This document shows, piece after piece, positions 18,040 to 25,874 of a stretch of 64,000 bases of DNA. Numbering within the stretch: position 1 is the first letter of the stretch; each line of letters starts with the position of its first letter. The translations under genes and the position numbers were made by a program. The stretch is from a bacterium (lineage in GTDB: Bacteria; Sumerlaeota; Sumerlaeia; SLMS01; JAHLLQ01). The stretch lies in assembly GCA_020444065.1 (NCBI GenBank), contig JAHLLQ010000003.1, positions 568,979 through 632,978 on the forward strand. The letters run 5' to 3'. The notes under the pieces were generated by a model. That model was not told where the DNA came from and searched no databases. It saw nothing but the letters and a program-made list of their open reading frames with translations.

Positions 18040-18840
18040 ATGGAGAGCATAGGCCGAGAATCTACACCCATTGTGTCGCTTGCTCGCCAGCTTCTGGCGA
18101 TCGAGCGCCGTCGCCTGCTGCGAAGGCTCCTGCCGATCGCGGCGGGAGCGACGATCCTCGCCTTCCTGGGCCTGTTCTTCGCCGTTTCGATCGGCAACCA
18201 TGGCCCGAGCGGGATCCTCGAGGACTTCCGGTCTCCGCGCCGCGAATTCGACTTCTTCGTAGAGCGGCTGATCAAGAATGGCCTCATTCTCCTCATTCCG
18301 CTCTTCGCCGGGCTGGCCGGGCACCTGATTCATGTGCCCCTCGCCGCCACTCGGATCTGGACCCAACCCCGCACGCAGAGCCTGCTTGCCGATCTGCGCC
18401 ACGCTCCGCTGCGGTGGAGCCACGTGGTTCTCGCGGTGCTGGCGGCTCGGCTGCTGCCGCTCATTCTCTTATACAGTGCCCTGCCTGTCGGCATCGCACT
18501 CCTTCTGCTCGCACGATCAGAGATGATTTCCAGCCTCCTGTTCCTTTTCTACTTCCCGCTGGAGATGGCGGCGGCGGGCGTGCTCCTCGGAGCGCTCGCG
18601 CTCCGCTGGAAACACATGCCGCCGATGGTCCTTGTCGCCGCTGCGGCGCCGGTCCTTCTGGCCGTGCATCCGTTCTTTCTGGGAATGATCAGCGCCGCCT
18701 TCATGTTCGGATCGCTCGGGCGAAGCGTCGTCTTCTGGCTCGACGAACCACTGGGATTGTCCCTGATGACCGCCGCAAAGCTCGCCCTCGCGGCGGGTGC
18801 CCTGTGGTGGGCGGTTCGCCGCGAGGGGGATGAGGTTTAG
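18040..18840 (+). CDS. Hypothetical polytopic membrane protein
   Basis: A 266-residue protein with six probable membrane helices after an arginine-rich N-terminus (AIERRRLLRRLLPIAAGATILAFLGLFFAV; LILLIPLFAGLAGHLI; VVLAVLAARLLPLILLYSALPVG; SLLFLFYFPLEMAAAGVLLGALAL; MVLVAAAAPVLLAVHPFFLGM; LMTAAKLALAAGALWWAV). The topology resembles an ABC-2 type permease subunit, but no ATPase gene is adjacent, so that is only a possibility. Its stop codon overlaps the rtcA stop convergently at 18837-18840. Confidence 0.55.
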   Translation: MESIGRESTPIVSLARQLLAIERRRLLRRLLPIAAGATILAFLGLFFAVSIGNHGPSGILEDFRSPRREFDFFVERLIKNGLILLIPLFAGLAGHLIHVPLAATRIWTQPRTQSLLADLRHAPLRWSHVVLAVLAARLLPLILLYSALPVGIALLLLARSEMISSLLFLFYFPLEMAAAGVLLGALALRWKHMPPMVLVAAAAPVLLAVHPFFLGMISAAFMFGSLGRSVVFWLDEPLGLSLMTAAKLALAAGALWWAVRREGDEV

Positions 18841-19862
18841 CGGGGTGGTTGCACGCGAACGAGTACGCGGTTTTCTTCCATCGTCTCGAACGTCACGCGG
18901 ACGGGGAGGAACTTCTCGATGATCGCCGCGTTGGTTGTTGTGTGCGGCAGCGGCGGAATCGTCACGAACTCGCCACCGCCCGCAACGGCCACCGGCAGCA
19001 GAAGCTGGTCCGCCAGGTAGGGCCCAACAGGGACGTCTGCCTGCAGCCACTGCTCGGCGCGGCCGACGGCGCGGCGTGCCACGCTTTCCGCCGAAACGCG
19101 CCGCTCGCCGAACGCACTGAACATCTCGGTGATATGCTCGGCCTCGAATCGAATCATCAAGACGTTGCCCGGCCCGTGGCGTTTGCGTGTCTCGGTCAAG
19201 CGTAACTCCGAGTCGTTGAACTGGAGCGCGCGCTTCACGACGTTCAACTCGCGCGCACCGATGCCCGGATCGAGATCCGCCACAAGGGCTTCCGCCTCGC
19301 GGCTGACGATCTTGCCACGATCGAGCAATGCAATCGGCTTCAGTGCCTTCGCCGGATGCACGGTCACCTGCATCGCGCCACCGCCGGCGGGGTAGAACCC
19401 GGGACGGAGCAGACGCGCTTCGACGGATGCTCCCATTCGCGCCAACAAGGGCAAGTACACGTCCTTGATGAACGGAAACGGGGGCGCCATCGGGTTGTGC
19501 GTTCCGCCGCGCAGTTCGACGTGCGACGGTCCGTCTGCCATCAGCAACGGCAGAAGAATCGTCTGCAGCACCAGCGTCGTGCTGCCCGCCGTGCCGACGG
19601 CGAACTCGTATGTGCCGGCAACGACAGCGCCGGGATGGAATTGCACTTCAGACGCGCCGATCGCGGCGCCTTCCAGGTAACCATTGGAAATGCGCGCCGC
19701 GGCTTTCAGCGCGGTCAAGTGCTGGCGCAGCACACCGGGCTTCTTGCGGCCCGCACGAATGCGAACCATCCGAATCGGCTGCTGCGTGAGAATGGAAAGC
19801 GCGAGGGCAGATCGGATGATCTGCCCTCCGCCTTCACCTTGTGAACCGTCGATCGTGATCAT
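18837..19862 (-). CDS. rtcA: RNA 3'-terminal phosphate cyclase RtcA
   Basis: A 341-residue enzyme that converts RNA 3'-phosphate (and 2'-phosphate) ends to 2',3'-cyclic phosphates through an AMP-histidine intermediate. Seen here: the N-terminal DGSQGEGGGQIIRSALALSI, RAGRKKPGVLRQHLTALKAAA, the central RPGFYPAGGGAMQV and the C-terminal HTTTNAAIIEKFLP, where His307 corresponds to the adenylylated His309 of E. coli RtcA. ATG 19862 begins the conserved MITIDGSQGEGGG; upstream codons are non-conserved. It lies 160 bases downstream of rtcB on the same strand with a strong stem-loop between them, and is the last gene of the rsr-Y RNA-rtcB-rtcA array. Its product can be a substrate for RtcB. Confidence 0.96.
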   Translation of the reverse strand: MITIDGSQGEGGGQIIRSALALSILTQQPIRMVRIRAGRKKPGVLRQHLTALKAAARISNGYLEGAAIGASEVQFHPGAVVAGTYEFAVGTAGSTTLVLQTILLPLLMADGPSHVELRGGTHNPMAPPFPFIKDVYLPLLARMGASVEARLLRPGFYPAGGGAMQVTVHPAKALKPIALLDRGKIVSREAEALVADLDPGIGARELNVVKRALQFNDSELRLTETRKRHGPGNVLMIRFEAEHITEMFSAFGERRVSAESVARRAVGRAEQWLQADVPVGPYLADQLLLPVAVAGGGEFVTIPPLPHTTTNAAIIEKFLPVRVTFETMEENRVLVRVQPPR

Positions 19863-19963
19863 TGGCTCGCCATCCCTTCGTCCCACTGCGCTTAATCCCC
19901 GGTTTCCTCGTCATTATTGCCCGTAGGAGCAATCCGAATTCGCGGCAATCAGAATCGGCAGTG

Positions 19964-19994
19964 CCGGCGGGAGGGAATCGCCCCCTCCTGCCGG
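19964..19994 (-). other. Strong stem-loop between rtcB and rtcA
   Basis: CCGGCGGGAGG (19964-19974) faces CCTCCTGCCGG (19984-19994): an 11-base stem with one wobble or mismatch and a nine-base loop, extendable by AGTGC/GCACT across a small bulge. No T-run follows on either strand. It could be a processing site, a transcript stabiliser or an attenuator that sets the rtcB/rtcA ratio. Confidence 0.5.
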
Positions 19995-20022
19995 GATCTG
20001 CACTCGCCGGTTTTCCCGCTTG

Positions 20023-21525
20023 TCATGCCTGTCCGCGCAAACTTCTGTCCGAGTCCTTCAGCACGAAGCACGCGCGCAATCGCGCAACTGTCTTCGCGAG
20101 TCCTGCCGTTTTGACGGTGCGCACGACTTCGCCGAAGTCCTTGTACGCCGCGGGCGCTTCGTCGCGCGGGTAGCGGCGACGATTCGACAGGATGTCGTGC
20201 TCATCGAGTTCCGCATCGATCGTGTCCTGGTCGAGCGACTTGATCGCAGCGGTCCGGCTGAGCGCGCGGCCCGCACCATGATTCACGCTGAAGCAACTTC
20301 GCTCTGCGCCGTCCTGTGCAACCATGACGACCGATCCGTCTCGCGGATTTCCCGGCAGGAGAATCGGATGACCGGTTTCGTGGAACGGCGTGTCCTTCAG
20401 CGAGAAGTGCCCGGCCGGATACGCTCGCGTTGCGCCCTTGCGATGCACGTACACTTCGCGGTTGCCGATGACTTCGCGTCGGGCGAAGTTGTGGCTGATG
20501 TAGTAGACCAGCCGCCCCGTCGTACCCGGCAACACTTCCTGAAACGCCTCCAGCACAAGCGCGTTGATCAGCAAGTGGTTGACGATCGCGAAGTTTCCGC
20601 CCATCGCCATGTCATCGAGATACTCATTGGCTCGGCGCGTTCCGAGCGGCGCGTAGACGAGCTCGCGATCGCCGCCGGGGAACGGAATCGACCACGTGCG
20701 AAAGAACTCCTGCAGCGATCGAAACTGTGCGTCGGCCAACATGTATCCGAAGCCGCGCGAGCCGCAGTGCGACAGGAACGAGACGTTTCCGTCGCGCAGT
20801 CCAAACGCATCGGCGACATCGCGCATCTCGTCTTCAACGCGCACGACGTTGCATTCACCAAAGTGGTTTCCGCCGCCGTAGGATCCAAGCTGGCGCAACT
20901 TTCCGAACACGCGATCGGCCGGAAGCGACGCGGCCAGGCGGGCGAATCGCTCGCGCAATGAATCCGCCGTTCCGTCGTGGCCTGCATGGGACGAGTCTTC
21001 GCACCGCGCGGTCCATACGACCGGGATGCCGAGCGCTTCGCAAACTTCCGGAGTTGCGCCTTCCGTCGCGACGAGGCGCCCGACATCGTTCGTGATGTAA
21101 CGGCCTTTCTTCGCATGGCGCGAGCCTCGGCCGGCGCCCGTCGGTGTGCGTTCGCAGATCGCGTTGATCAGCGCGCGGCGCAGCGGGCGCTCGCGAAGCG
21201 CTTCCTCCGGAAGGTCCAGTTGAAGCAACGACATCGAGCACTTGATGTCCACGCCGACCGGTCCGGGGTAGATATGATCCGGAGAGACCACAACGCATCC
21301 GACAGGTGCACCGTAGCCAGCGTGAGCGTCGGGGTTCAGAACAACATTCTGCACGCCCGGAGCGCGGCGCGTATTGATCGCCTGGCGCAGGCACAAGTCG
21401 TCGAATCCATCGCGAATGGCTTGCGTTGCGAATACGCGGATCGGCGTTGCGCCGTCGACCGGGATCAGCGCCTCGGCTTCTGCCACATCGACCAGCATCG
21501 GGGAATTCATTTTAAGGGACTGCAT
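20023..21525 (-). CDS. rtcB: RNA-splicing ligase RtcB (GTP/Mn-dependent)
   Basis: A 500-residue 3'-5' RNA ligase joining 2',3'-cyclic phosphate or 3'-phosphate ends to 5'-OH ends via a GMP-histidine intermediate. All landmarks are present: NPDAHAGYGAPVGCVV, the Mn ligands Asp93 and Cys96 (GVDIKCSMSL), GGGNHFGE (His221), HCGSRGFGY (His253), and NHGAGRALSR with the guanylylated His416. The start ATG is preceded by TGGAG six bases upstream. It follows the intergenic Y RNA candidate and precedes rtcA. At 500 residues it is longer than E. coli RtcB (408) and closer to archaeal-type forms. It repairs cleaved tRNA or rRNA. Confidence 0.97.
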   Translation of the reverse strand: MQSLKMNSPMLVDVAEAEALIPVDGATPIRVFATQAIRDGFDDLCLRQAINTRRAPGVQNVVLNPDAHAGYGAPVGCVVVSPDHIYPGPVGVDIKCSMSLLQLDLPEEALRERPLRRALINAICERTPTGAGRGSRHAKKGRYITNDVGRLVATEGATPEVCEALGIPVVWTARCEDSSHAGHDGTADSLRERFARLAASLPADRVFGKLRQLGSYGGGNHFGECNVVRVEDEMRDVADAFGLRDGNVSFLSHCGSRGFGYMLADAQFRSLQEFFRTWSIPFPGGDRELVYAPLGTRRANEYLDDMAMGGNFAIVNHLLINALVLEAFQEVLPGTTGRLVYYISHNFARREVIGNREVYVHRKGATRAYPAGHFSLKDTPFHETGHPILLPGNPRDGSVVMVAQDGAERSCFSVNHGAGRALSRTAAIKSLDQDTIDAELDEHDILSNRRRYPRDEAPAAYKDFGEVVRTVKTAGLAKTVARLRACFVLKDSDRSLRGQA

Positions 21526-21551
21526 TTCAAACTCCAGTTCTCTTCAGTAAG

Positions 21552-21686
21552 TTCTCCCGCCCTTTCCTGCGGCGACAAGTTGTTGCGAAACTTCAGACAT
21601 TGCGGAATCCGCAACGCTGGTGGGTTTCGAACCCACTGGTGCCAGATGTAGTTCCGCAGGCATTCGCCGCCGAAAGATTGGGAGAA
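21552..21686 (-). ncRNA. yrlA: Candidate Y RNA (YrlA-like) with tRNA-like T-arm
   Basis: The rsr-rtcB gap folds, on the minus strand, into a Y-RNA-like shape. The 5' and 3' ends pair in three blocks: TTCTCCC/GGGAGAA (21680-21686 with 21552-21558), CTTTC/GAAAG (21672-21676 with 21562-21566) and CGGCGA/TCGCCG (21664-21669 with 21570-21575). Inside lie a 7-base acceptor-like stem TGCGGAA/TTCCGCA (21652-21658 with 21601-21607) and a perfect T-arm, GTGGG-TTCGAAA-CCCAC (21620-21636). There is no anticodon arm. In enterobacteria the same position in rsr-yrlBA-rtcBA encodes Y RNAs that bind Rsr and mimic tRNA. The position is known biology and the pairing is directly seen; identity is inferred. Ends are approximate. 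Confidence 0.7.
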
Positions 21687-21692
21687 AATGGG

Positions 21693-21753
21693 GGCGACAA
21701 GGGTCCGGACGAGACGATACAGCAATGGTGTAGTCTCGCCTGCATTCGCCGCC
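21693..21753 (-). ncRNA. Second, shorter tandem RNA module (possible YrlB-like)
   Basis: Directly after the rsr stop, the minus strand reads GGCGGCGAATGC (21742-21753) through to CTTGTCGCC (21693-21701). The same two boundary strings bracket the core of the larger Y RNA candidate (21660-21671 and 21571-21579). Similarity continues inward (about 22 of 28 bases around the 5' boundary), then diverges. An internal stem GGCGAGAC/GTCTCGTCC (21733-21740 with 21707-21715, one bulge) closes a 17-base loop. It lacks the T-arm, so it may be a diverged second Y RNA, a 5' domain of the same RNA, or a decayed duplicate. Confidence 0.4.
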
Positions 21754-21757
21754 ATTT

Positions 21758-23308
21758 TCAGAGCGTGATTTCTTCGATGACTTCGACCCATTGCTTTGCG
21801 TTCATTCCACGCGCGGCGAACTGGCCGATGATTTCGAAGACGTTATCCGCGAATCCGCCGATGTTCAGCACGTCCTCTCGGTTGTAGGCTTGCGTCGAGG
21901 CGTAGGGCTGGAGATCCAGACACACCAGGCGCGCCCGCGGGTTACGGGTCTTGAAACGATTCCACTCTTCCATCGTGGCCGTTCCACGACCGCGCGCGAT
22001 ATCCATCCAGGACTCCGAATCCGAAACGTAGACGATCAGATCCGCCTTTGCCTTTCGCGCGTTCAGCTTTCGCAGCGGAGCCGCGCAGTTCGTTCCGCCG
22101 CCCCAGAGTCGGGCCAACGCCTCTGCGTTCTGCATGACCGTCGAGCCGCGTTCCGGCTTCCACTCCATGGCATTGCTGCCGAACGGAATCACCTCGGTTT
22201 GCGGGTTCTTCCGAACGAAGGACGCCGACACCAGGGCAGCGACATCGATGCATCGGACCGCGCTGGTTGCTCCCGGGCGGAATCCGGTGACGGGCGCTCC
22301 CATCGATCCGGAGACATCCGGGAAGACGTAGACCTTTCCGTCGACGCGCGGCACGTTCTGGATGGCCGCTTCCATCGCCGACTCGAGAGCATCCTTCAGC
22401 TTCTTTGGTACCTCCGTGCCGGTGGCTCGCCATGCGGCCAGCAACTGGTAGGGAAACGCGCGGGCGCTCTTGATCCTCCTCGGATCTGCGAGTCGACCGG
22501 CCAACTTCTTCACAACTTGCGGATCTTCCAGCACGCCGTGCCGCGCGAAGGTGTTCAGGTTCATTCGCAGCATGTGCCAGCGCGCGTTCACCGCGATTTC
22601 CGCCCACTGCTCTCGCCCCAGGTTCAGGGCCGTCAGCATCTGGAACGGCACCGCCGGCACCTTCGCCGACTCGCCGGACTTGAACGCTTCGAAGTTCTTC
22701 ACGATCTGCGGCAGCGAGGCCGCATCGTAATCGCGTCCGATCATCCATCCGTACAGCGCTTCGCGCGAACGAGTCGCCGGACGCGGGTGGACCATCTTCA
22801 CAATATCCGCCAGCGACGGGCTGTTTCCGACGGAGGCTTCGAAGATCTCTTCGTCCTTTCGCGAAGCGAGCCATTCGCGCACCAGGCGCTTCGGCCGCGT
22901 GCCAAGCGACATCCGGCCCGTTTCGCCGGAGCGCAGAATCTGCACGAAATTGCGCAGCATCTTGCCGTTGTCGATCACGCGAGCGAAGATGCTTTCCAGC
23001 AACTCGCCGTCCTCTGTGGCGAGAATCGCACAGAGCAACGCCGGCATATCCTTCATGTAGCCCCGCTCGCGTGCGTAGATCGCCGTCTTCGCGATGAACT
23101 CCGGCTCGACTTCTCGGCACAGAGCCTTCACACGATCCAACTGATCCGCGCCGTACGCGTAGTACGTTTGGTTGAAGCAACCCGTCGCCGCGAACTGCGC
23201 GAGTTGGTGCTTCGGAGGCAGTGCGTAGGCGCGGCCGCCCGCTTCGTTGCGGGAGCGAGCCGGCAGAACCTTCCGCAGTGCATTCGAGAAGAGAGTCGTG
23301 CTTGCCAT
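21758..23308 (-). CDS. rsr: Rsr, bacterial Ro60/TROVE-vWA protein
   Basis: A 516-residue ring-shaped RNA-binding protein. The TROVE domain of HEAT-like helices spans about residues 25-320 (HQLAQFAATGCFNQTYYA; FIAKTAIYARERGYMKDMPALLCAILA; KNFEAFKSGES; MNLNTFARHGVL). A von Willebrand A domain follows, with a complete MIDAS site: Asp331-Ser333-Ser335 (DVSGS), Thr406 (GGGTNC) and Asp430. Ro60 orthologues bind Y RNA and misfolded RNA and tether PNPase or other nucleases in bacteria. ATG 23308 has AAAGGCGG nine bases upstream; frames reaching 23548 run through the promoter. It is the first gene of the sigma-54-type array rsr-Y RNA-rtcB-rtcA. Confidence 0.96.
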   Translation of the reverse strand: MASTTLFSNALRKVLPARSRNEAGGRAYALPPKHQLAQFAATGCFNQTYYAYGADQLDRVKALCREVEPEFIAKTAIYARERGYMKDMPALLCAILATEDGELLESIFARVIDNGKMLRNFVQILRSGETGRMSLGTRPKRLVREWLASRKDEEIFEASVGNSPSLADIVKMVHPRPATRSREALYGWMIGRDYDAASLPQIVKNFEAFKSGESAKVPAVPFQMLTALNLGREQWAEIAVNARWHMLRMNLNTFARHGVLEDPQVVKKLAGRLADPRRIKSARAFPYQLLAAWRATGTEVPKKLKDALESAMEAAIQNVPRVDGKVYVFPDVSGSMGAPVTGFRPGATSAVRCIDVAALVSASFVRKNPQTEVIPFGSNAMEWKPERGSTVMQNAEALARLWGGGTNCAAPLRKLNARKAKADLIVYVSDSESWMDIARGRGTATMEEWNRFKTRNPRARLVCLDLQPYASTQAYNREDVLNIGGFADNVFEIIGQFAARGMNAKQWVEVIEEITL

Positions 23309-23359
23309 GATCATCATCCGCCTTTCGCGGCAATCTCGTTTCTTACGCCGCTCCCTAGT

Positions 23360-23374
23360 GCGCGAAGGGTGCCA
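23360..23374 (-). promoter_or_regulatory. Putative sigma-54 (-24/-12) promoter of the rsr-rtcBA array
   Basis: On the minus strand TTGGCAC is followed five bases later by GCGC, so the invariant GG and GC are ten bases apart, as in TGGCAC-N5-TTGC. The -24 box is perfect and the -12 box is weaker. It lies about 50 bases before the rsr ATG. The divergent rtcR gene makes a sigma-54 promoter expected here. Confidence 0.65.
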
Positions 23375-23448
23375 ATGATCTGGGGTCATGAGTGGTGGCT
23401 TGAATAGTGCTGAAATTATTCGGGTTGAAGCGCTATGGGTTCTTGGCC

Positions 23449-23479
23449 TTGACCTTTGGCTCTCGACAAGATTTATAGA
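23449..23479 (+). promoter_or_regulatory. Possible sigma-70 promoter of the methyltransferase-rtcR operon
   Basis: TTGACC (23449-23454) and an AT-rich block holding TTTATA at 17 bases or TATAGA (23474-23479) at 19 bases, 54 bases before the methyltransferase start. The AT-rich stretch 23461-23500 stands out from the GC-rich surroundings and may also serve bending or IHF binding for the divergent sigma-54 promoter. Confidence 0.35.
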
Positions 23480-23532
23480 AATAAATAAGACTTTAGAAAA
23501 TTGACGCGCGCATGGACGAAGGGGCAAAACCG

Positions 23533-24276
23533 ATGGAACAGGCACCAAACACTCGGATGTATTCGGATCTGGCGAAGTACTGGCCGCTGATCAGCGCGCC
23601 GGAAGACTACGCGCCGGAGGCAGCCTTCTGGCTCGCGGCGTTGCGCGATCACCTTGGGCCGGGAAAGCACGCGTTGTTGGAACTCGGCGTTGGGGGAGGC
23701 AACAATCTCTCGCATTTCGCTGCGGAGTTCGATGTTGTTGCGGTCGATTTGTCGGCGGAGATGCTCGTGCACTCGCGGCGCATCAATCCCTCCGTCGAGC
23801 ACCATGTTGGCGACATGCGGACGGTGCGCGTCGACCGGACCTTCGACGCCGTAATCATCCACGATGCGATCAATTACATCACGACCGAGGATGACTTGCT
23901 GACAACGTTTCGGAACGCGTTCGACCATCTTCGGAGTGGCGGCATCTTTATCACGTCGCCGGACTTCACCTGCGAAACGTTCCATCCTCCCTTCGTGGAA
24001 CACACAACGCGGCGCAATGCCGAGACCGAGCTGACTTACCTCGAGTACACCCACGACCCGGATCCGGCTGACACAGCCATCGAGACGATCTTCTTCTTCA
24101 TCATCAGGGAGCAGGGACAGGTCCACACCGTTGAAGATCGTCACACGACGGGCCTGTTTCCGCACGCGATGTGGTTGTCGCTGCTCGAGCGCGCAGGCTT
24201 CGAGGCCTCCACCCGCGAGTATCCCGTCCATGACGATGAGCGGCAGGCGTGGCTCTTTGTCGGGAGGAAGCCATGA
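23533..24276 (+). CDS. Class I SAM-dependent methyltransferase coupled to rtcR
   Basis: A 247-residue Rossmann-fold methyltransferase. Motif I is LLELGVGGGNN (about 48-58), followed by the acidic end of strand 2 (VVAVDLSAEML), motif II-like HVGDMRTVRVDRTFDAVIIHDAINYI, and a post-I region GGIFITSPDFTCETFHPPF. No target-specific domain (RNA-binding, PUA, THUMP) is visible. ATG 23533 has GAAGGGG eight bases upstream; an ATG at 23512 is possible. Its stop overlaps the rtcR start (ATGA), so the two are made together, placing it with the sensor rather than with the repair enzymes. The substrate is unknown: RNA ends, a tRNA fragment or a small signalling ligand are all conceivable. I do not know this gene from described Rtc operons. 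Confidence 0.85.
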   Translation: MEQAPNTRMYSDLAKYWPLISAPEDYAPEAAFWLAALRDHLGPGKHALLELGVGGGNNLSHFAAEFDVVAVDLSAEMLVHSRRINPSVEHHVGDMRTVRVDRTFDAVIIHDAINYITTEDDLLTTFRNAFDHLRSGGIFITSPDFTCETFHPPFVEHTTRRNAETELTYLEYTHDPDPADTAIETIFFFIIREQGQVHTVEDRHTTGLFPHAMWLSLLERAGFEASTREYPVHDDERQAWLFVGRKP

Positions 24277-25874
24277 CGGCGAAACGCAATGTCGTGATCG
24301 GTTTGCTGGGCGTGACGCTGGATCAGGGCAAGAACCGCAAGCGCTGGTCGCACTGGCGCCCGACGGTTTCGATCTGCCAGCACGAGGATTTTCTCGTCGA
24401 TCGGTTCGAGCTCCTTTTCCAGGAGGAATTCCGCGATCTTGCAAACGTCGTCGTGCGCGACATCGAATCCGTCTCGCCGGAAACGGAGGTACGGCTGACT
24501 GAGGTTCCATTGCCGAATCCTTGGGACTTCGAAGGCGTGTACGGGGCACTGCTCGACTTCGCGATGCAATACAAGTTCAACTCCGAGAAGGAGCGGTACT
24601 TCGTCCACATCACAACGGGTAGTCACGTCGCGCAGATCTGCCTCTTCCTGCTGACCGAGGCGCGCTACATGCCCGGCGTTCTCTTGCAGAGCAGCCCGAA
24701 GAGCGAGCCGCGCAACATTGCCGGGACGCTTTCGACGGTGGATCTCGACTTGTCGAAGTACGACGCGATTGCGTCGCGCTTCGCAACGGTACGGCGCGAG
24801 GGATTGAGTTTCCTGAAGGATGGGATTGAGACCCGCAGCAAAACCTTCAACGAAACGATCGAGCGCATCGAACGCGTTGCGATCGCATCGCGCGCACCGA
24901 TTCTGATGATGGGGCCGACGGGTGCGGGCAAATCGCGCCTCGCGCGGCGCATCTACGAGTTGAAGAAGCAACGCCGACGCTTGGACGGTCCGCTGATTGA
25001 AGTCAACTGCGCGACCATCCGCGGCGAAGGCGCGATGTCGGCGCTATTCGGCCACACCAAAGGCGCGTTCACCGGCGCCGCCGGTTCGCGCGACGGCATG
25101 TTGCTCGCCGCCAACAAAGGTATTCTGTTTCTTGACGAAATCGGTGAACTCGGGTCTGACGAGCAGGCGATGTTGCTGGGTGCCATCGAGGAGAAGCGTT
25201 TCTATCCGCTCGGGTCCGACCGCGCGGTCACCAGCGACTTCCAACTGATTGCCGGCACGAATCGCGATCTTGCCGCGGCGTGTCGCAAGGGCCAGTTCCG
25301 CGAGGATCTCTTCGCGCGCATTAACTTGTGGACGTTTCGTCTGCCGGGCCTCGCGGAACGCCGCGAGGACATCGCGCCGAACCTCGACTATGAGCTCGAA
25401 CGATTCGCCCGCGAACAAGGCAGTCGTGTGACGATCAACAAGGAAGCGCGTACGCGGTTCTTGCGCTTTGCTGAATCGCCGGATGCGCTCTGGCCGGCCA
25501 GCTTTCGAGATCTTGGCGCGGCCGTGATGCGCATGGCGACGTTGTGCGACGGCGGCCGCATCAACGTGCGGATTGTCGAGGAGGAAATCGGACGAATGCG
25601 CGATCAGTGGCGCGATGCCGCCACTCCAACCAGTCCGGGTGACCCACTCTTGCCGCGCTTCCTGAGTGGCGACGAAATCGACGCGCTCGACCTGTTCGAC
25701 CGCGTGCAACTGGAGCATGTGCTCCTCGTTTGTCGCCAGTCACGCAGCCTGTCCGACGCCGGTCGCACCTTGTTCCAGGCTTCGCTGTCTCGCCGGAAGT
25801 CCTCCAACGATGCGGATCGGCTGCGGAAGTACCTGGCCAAGTTCGGCCTGGAGTGGAAGCAGATCGCTCGATGA
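24273..25874 (+). CDS. rtcR: RtcR, sigma-54-dependent activator with CARF sensor domain
   Basis: A 533-residue bacterial enhancer-binding protein. The N-terminal RtcR/CARF domain (about 1-180) includes VVIGLLGVTLDQGK, HEDFLVDRFELLF and YFVHITTGSHVAQICLFLLTEARYMPGVLLQSSP. The AAA+ domain has Walker A GPTGAGKS (214-221), the sigma-54-contacting GAFTGA loop (264-269) and Walker B ILFLDE (284-289). The C-terminal region ends with a helix-turn-helix-like segment (LLVCRQSRSLSDAGRTLF...DRLRKYLAKFGL). RtcR silences itself through the CARF domain until RNA damage, reportedly tRNA fragments with cyclic ends, relieves it. The start overlaps the methyltransferase stop. It is divergent to the operon it should control. 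Confidence 0.96.
   Translation: MTAKRNVVIGLLGVTLDQGKNRKRWSHWRPTVSICQHEDFLVDRFELLFQEEFRDLANVVVRDIESVSPETEVRLTEVPLPNPWDFEGVYGALLDFAMQYKFNSEKERYFVHITTGSHVAQICLFLLTEARYMPGVLLQSSPKSEPRNIAGTLSTVDLDLSKYDAIASRFATVRREGLSFLKDGIETRSKTFNETIERIERVAIASRAPILMMGPTGAGKSRLARRIYELKKQRRRLDGPLIEVNCATIRGEGAMSALFGHTKGAFTGAAGSRDGMLLAANKGILFLDEIGELGSDEQAMLLGAIEEKRFYPLGSDRAVTSDFQLIAGTNRDLAAACRKGQFREDLFARINLWTFRLPGLAERREDIAPNLDYELERFAREQGSRVTINKEARTRFLRFAESPDALWPASFRDLGAAVMRMATLCDGGRINVRIVEEEIGRMRDQWRDAATPTSPGDPLLPRFLSGDEIDALDLFDRVQLEHVLLVCRQSRSLSDAGRTLFQASLSRRKSSNDADRLRKYLAKFGLEWKQIAR

Follow-up and report, generated by a model that had tools for sequence, protein, structure and literature searches.

The window, the whole stretch of 64,000 nucleotides analyzed here, carries an RNA-repair locus (18837–25874) in which five elements follow one another on the minus strand in the order rsr, a plain Y RNA, a tRNA-like Y RNA, rtcB and rtcA. 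The rsr gene (21758–23317) encodes a 519-residue Ro60/TROVE-vWA protein with the MIDAS motif DVSGS (Pfam vWA_Ro60, 1.6e-13; TROVE, 8.5e-7), which also matches the NCBIfam Rsr family with an E-value of 5e-19, below the family cut-off. It is followed by rtcB (20023–21525), encoding an RNA ligase of 500 residues (Pfam RtcB, 3e-99), and by rtcA (18837–19886) for the RNA 3'-phosphate cyclase, which NCBIfam recognizes above its cut-off. Divergent from these genes lies rtcR (24249–25874, plus strand), encoding a sigma-54 activator with a CARF-type domain (NCBIfam RtcR, 788.9 bits; cut-off 650). A sigma-54-type promoter candidate, TGGCACCCTTCGCGCA (GG-N10-GC, two mismatches to the consensus by which it was recognized), is located at 23359–23374 on the minus strand, and the probable start of rsr (23317) follows approximately 41 bases further downstream. 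The operon is probably switched on by RtcR together with sigma-54, and we found neither sigma-70 promoters nor intrinsic terminators in the rsr–rtcB gap, which suits a single processed transcript.

No matching rsr was found in 38 other genomes of the same class or in 39 others of the phylum, which suggests that the operon was acquired horizontally. RtcR and RtcA are close to those of other rsr operons (55–60% and 45–54% identity, respectively), unlike the RtcB (20023–21525, minus strand, 500 residues), which is only about 25% identical to its counterparts and, judged by its sequence, would belong to a different RtcB subfamily occupying the same place. Between rsr and rtcR is a class I methyltransferase gene (23512–24276, plus strand), which overlaps the latter; tblastn detected no such gene in the other rsr loci.

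An earlier sequence-only reading had placed a structured RNA on the minus strand of the rsr–rtcB gap, where Y RNAs are expected next to rsr, and both points held: the rsr stop codon is at 21758 and the RNA extends from 21685 to 21553 on the same strand. The minus strand of 21552–21686 has a minimum free energy (MFE) of −64.6 kcal/mol against a shuffle mean of −41.6 (sd 3.8), corresponding to z = −5.99, and none of 200 shuffles folds as low; the plus strand of the same interval folds more weakly (z −2.6). Pairing of the two ends runs through the full length of the RNA (21553–21685). The three end helices that had been described, of 7, 5 and 6 bp, are indeed three blocks, with lengths of 6–7, 6 and 7 bp instead. 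The outermost pairs TTCTCCC (21680–21686) with GGGAGAA (21552–21558), of which seven positions are complementary and six are paired in the MFE structure, the first U being common to the upstream RNA. The second, TCTTTC/GGAAAG, comprises 6 bp and lies between the outer block and P1, the conserved terminal helix formed by GCGGCGA (21664–21670) and TCGCCGC (21569–21575). The description of the end pairing was right overall, apart from a 9-bp inner helix, P2, which had not been separated and which joins TGCGGAACT (21650–21658) to AGTTTCGCA (21584–21592); P1 and P2 are both defined by the match to the covariance model R1 and by covariation.

P2 encloses, in order, the short linker ACATCTGGCACCA, which contains a GG dinucleotide at 21642–21643, a T-arm and a capped hairpin. 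The T-arm (21620–21636), which also covaries in relatives, is the perfect 5-7-5 arm GTGGG-TTCGAAA-CCCAC exactly as previously read. The enclosed acceptor-like stem was likewise correctly recognized; it is a capped hairpin (21594–21619), CAGCGTTGCGG-ATT-CCGCAATG(u)CTG, of 11 bp with one bulged U, stacked on the T-arm with zero linker nucleotides. The RNA has no anticodon arm, as had been stated. A D-arm (UAGCUCA..GAGC after the acceptor stem) is also absent from both the sequence and the structure of the 21553–21685 RNA, so that it counts as a YrlA variant and not as YrlA proper.

At the gathering threshold, Rfam has zero matches in the whole window; the D-armless RNA is therefore unannotated, and the expectation that standard annotation would miss it was correct. 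With permissive settings, Rfam YrlA (RF02553) aligns to it over the full length with 47.9 bits (E 1.2e-9), short of the gathering score of 69, and the alignment contains a deletion at the position of the acceptor and D-arm. With respect to YrlA membership, the T-arm and the capped acceptor-like stem are present, and the gathering score and the D-arm are lacking. The features of bacterial Y RNAs in the broad sense are found: the RNA is encoded beside rsr on the same strand and has a long end-paired stem with conserved motifs. A tRNA gene was considered and rejected, neither ARAGORN nor the Rfam tRNA model finding one.

We collected the Y RNAs of relatives from 55 rsr loci found through Rsr and built the independent covariance model R1. 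Its 12 D-armless RNAs came from Oxalobacteraceae and other Burkholderiales, with the RNA of the window excluded. We preferred a covariance model to MAFFT alone, which placed the acceptor hairpin incorrectly in distant members. R1 matches the window RNA with zero non-standard pairs and a score of 63.3 bits (E 5e-16 when the window was searched). When the whole 5.2-Mb genome was searched, the RNA had an E-value of 4.4e-14 and the sole other match was its neighboring Y RNA; across related loci, R1 gave 131 matches in 56 sources, all on the rsr strand. We identify the RNA at 21553–21685 as a bacterial Y RNA of a D-armless kind that falls outside YrlA in the strict sense. Because the Rfam YrlA model misses the D-armless form at its cut-off, both here and in a Pseudoduganella relative (42.1 bits), annotation of the Y RNAs in rsr operons is likely incomplete.

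The neighboring Y RNA (21757–21686, minus strand), overlooked previously, is a plain, YrlB-like RNA without a T-arm, with a fold z of −4.42 and a match to the R1 stem of 27.3 bits (E 2e-5). It begins at the stop codon of rsr and directly adjoins the D-armless RNA, with zero bases separating the two stems in the joint fold. A plain-stem Y RNA ahead of a tRNA-like one is the order of yrlBA in Salmonella. The upstream RNA differs from YrlB in having the stem motifs in common rather than the whole sequence, and Rfam YrlB (RF02565) gives it 24.6 bits (E 0.014), short of the gathering score of 97. The window holds a real pair of Y RNAs left unannotated by the Rfam thresholds.

Because genomes of the same class and phylum offered no matching rsr, covariation was drawn from distant relatives. 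Among 26 aligned members, 92.2% of the cells are paired compared with 73.6% after shuffling, and 26 of the 31 pairs have changed on both sides compared with 17.2 in shuffles, a value that none of 500 shuffles reaches. The signal collapses when the partners are slid by one column. The alignment used for counting these pairs was fitted to the model, and the MAFFT-only set of 12 gives the same trend. The compensatory changes are located in P1 (4/7 pairs changed on both sides), P2 (7/8 modelled pairs, with 99% of cells paired), the T-arm and the acceptor-like hairpin (11/11 pairs). Compensatory changes had been expected in all three end blocks; among the end helices they were demonstrated in the inner block P1 and the inner helix P2, not in the two outer blocks. 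The latter are a pairing particular to this locus (z = −2.4 for the flank duplex) and are not conserved in most relatives, although some of these (Cardiobacterium, Hyphomicrobiales) have comparably long outer stems. The outer stems would probably define the ends of the RNA on excision from the operon transcript.

Covariation also bears on whether the structure is a Y RNA at all, since rtcB might have its leader, an attenuator or a processing element at the same place, or the pairing might be fortuitous. The structure does immediately precede rtcB on a shared transcript, and a 94-residue ORF overlaps it. There is no terminator-like site, other operons contain several such Y RNA units in tandem, and the match to an independent Y RNA model together with the covariation makes such an explanation exceedingly improbable.

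Three kinds of Y RNA occur downstream of rsr in the relatives: plain RNAs of about 60 nt; YrlA-type RNAs with a T-arm, a capped acceptor and a D-arm; and D-armless RNAs of about 90–104 nt that carry the T-arm and capped acceptor only, to which the window RNA belongs. One could regard it as a decayed canonical YrlA that has lost its D-arm on the way to a pseudogene, since Rfam YrlA aligns along its full length with a deletion at the acceptor/D-arm and since Janthinobacterium shows that such RNAs can degenerate. However, the same D-armless layout is found in 17 sequence clusters (<70% identity) from loci labelled Proteobacteria, Acidobacteria and Planctomycetes, including Rhizobiales and Methylobacteriaceae. 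Five Duganella/Pseudoduganella loci yielded no Y RNA other than the D-armless form, which argues against decay, as do the strong covariation, the perfect T-arm of the window RNA and the constraint on the GG of its linker. We therefore consider decay very unlikely. As the sole Y RNA detected in some operons, the D-armless form may represent the smallest tRNA-like module that Rsr and PNPase require.

The constraint on the linker is most evident from its association with the T-loop. All 31 D-armless RNAs with an intact T-loop, representing the 17 clusters, have GG in the linker before the T-arm, and the product of the linker-shuffle probabilities for GG is 2e-6. The same place holds GG in only 5/49 Y RNAs with a D-arm and 2/24 plain Y RNAs without a T-arm, and in none of the ten D-armless RNAs with a broken T-loop, which come from Janthinobacterium, a single clade, and from Collimonas humicola, in which T55 is changed to G. 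When all tRNA-like Y RNAs were considered by script, an intact T54-T55 accompanied GG in the linker or the D-loop in 97 of 108. The 11 misses are mostly parsing failures when inspected by eye, with two clear exceptions, L009:4922 and L024:4861, in which the T-loop is intact and GG is absent. When T55 is changed, one of five RNAs keeps GG (Fisher p = 0.001 against intact T54-T55), and L022:4895 keeps GG despite a changed T-loop. In these statistics the relatives are non-independent, phylogeny is only partly corrected and the model that retrieved the later members itself contains GG.

From this co-conservation we infer that the linker GG of the window RNA replaces G18G19 of the D-loop: it would dock into the T-loop as G18G19 do in tRNA, creating a tRNA-like elbow without a D-arm. 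A further group of 15 Y RNAs, with the D-loop opened, has a related layout, in which GG right after ACAU is followed by the 3' D-stem strand, an anticodon-like hairpin, the T-arm, the capped acceptor and the 5' D-stem strand; GG was part of the criterion by which this group was selected, and the matching D-stem strand was not. These RNAs have in common with the window RNA the GG after ACAU ahead of the T-arm and the capped acceptor, and they differ in keeping, in permuted order, the D-stem and the anticodon-like arm that the window RNA lacks. We lean towards the view that the tRNA-mimicking layouts of Y RNAs are built around one constraint, the contact of GG with the T-loop at the elbow. The window RNA might then be the minimal solution, in which an in-line linker GG stands for the whole D-arm and half a tRNA suffices for the elbow.

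The RNA could also be a Y RNA in which GG serves as a contact motif for a protein, Rsr or PNPase, with no docking into the T-loop. GG adjoins the conserved ACUACAU segment, and the statistics linking it to the T-loop are correlative. A contact of this kind is harder to reconcile with the rarity of GG in the Y RNAs that have a D-arm or lack a T-arm and yet carry the same stem motifs, with its loss together with the T-loop motif in the D-armless RNAs and with the loss of GG that accompanies a changed T55 in D-loops too. We consider the protein-contact explanation possible and the less likely of the two. Given the co-conservation of GG and the T-loop, changing two bases would suffice to test a specific contact in three dimensions.

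The closest known systems include Salmonella YrlA and the Y RNA of Deinococcus radiodurans. In Salmonella, the operon has the order rsr-yrlBA-rtcBA under the control of RtcR (PMC7790460). The window RNA resembles Salmonella YrlA (RF02553) in its rsr–rtcB position, in the long end-paired stem with CGAAUGC/CUUGUCG motifs and in having a T-arm followed by a capped acceptor-like stem without an anticodon arm; it differs in the lack of the D-arm and the presence of GG in the 5' linker instead. In Deinococcus radiodurans, the Y RNA tethers Rsr to PNPase: its end-paired stem binds Rsr, and an internal loop bears two hairpins, of which the T-arm-like one binds the KH/S1 domains (PMC6181284). Compared by description rather than by sequence, the window RNA likewise has two hairpins, the second of which is stacked directly on the T-arm, and its binding of PNPase is putative. 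A PNPase gene is present in the genome, with 46% identity to E. coli PNPase; no TruB was detected in the 20 kb around pnp.

On these grounds, we think it rather probable that the RNA at 21553–21685 is a minimal, D-armless tRNA-mimicking Y RNA co-transcribed with the plain Y RNA in an rsr-Y-Y-rtcB-rtcA RNA-repair operon under RtcR and sigma-54, with induction presumably on tRNA damage. The P1/P2 stem with its conserved CGAAUGC, ACUACAU and CUUGUCG segments would bind Rsr, and the module of T-arm and acceptor might keep PNPase beside Rsr in a RYPER-like manner, thereby steering PNPase to structured or damaged RNA. The same RNA might instead inhibit tRNA-cutting nucleases by competition or as a decoy, a role suggested for the tRNA-like domain of Salmonella YrlA (PMC7790460) and compatible with an operon tied to tRNA damage. 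It fits the window RNA less well because this RNA lacks the anticodon arm, at which anticodon nucleases usually act, whereas the tether has experimental support in Deinococcus (PMC6181284), and we regard the decoy role as unlikely.

The relatives displayed further variation in Y RNA architecture. The D-armless Y RNAs of Janthinobacterium (L015, L019, L027–L029, L034–L036 and L053) retain the stem and acceptor hairpin after loss of both the linker GG and the T-loop motif. The Y RNAs of Cardiobacterium, located upstream of rsr (L021:2357-2813 and L049:2520-2813), have outer stems about 20 bp longer. In L011:4588, L020:4849, L041:4828 and L044:4828, the order is swapped, with the hairpin before the T-arm. 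The D-loop-opened Y RNAs look like circularly permuted tRNAs within the Y stem, with a variable loop too; they comprise L043:4645 (31.8 bits with Rfam YrlA, cut-off 69), L016:4970, L017:5135, L023:4711, L024:5012, L026:5056, L030:4716, L032:4912, L044:5064, L046:5007, L055:4949, L082:1605, L094:236, L096:300 and L097:23. Finally, in a viral contig with rsr (L115:4738, IMG/VR contig 3300010430_000022), a complete tRNA-like sequence in unpermuted order, with acceptor, D, anticodon and T arms, apparently lies inside the stem of a Y RNA.
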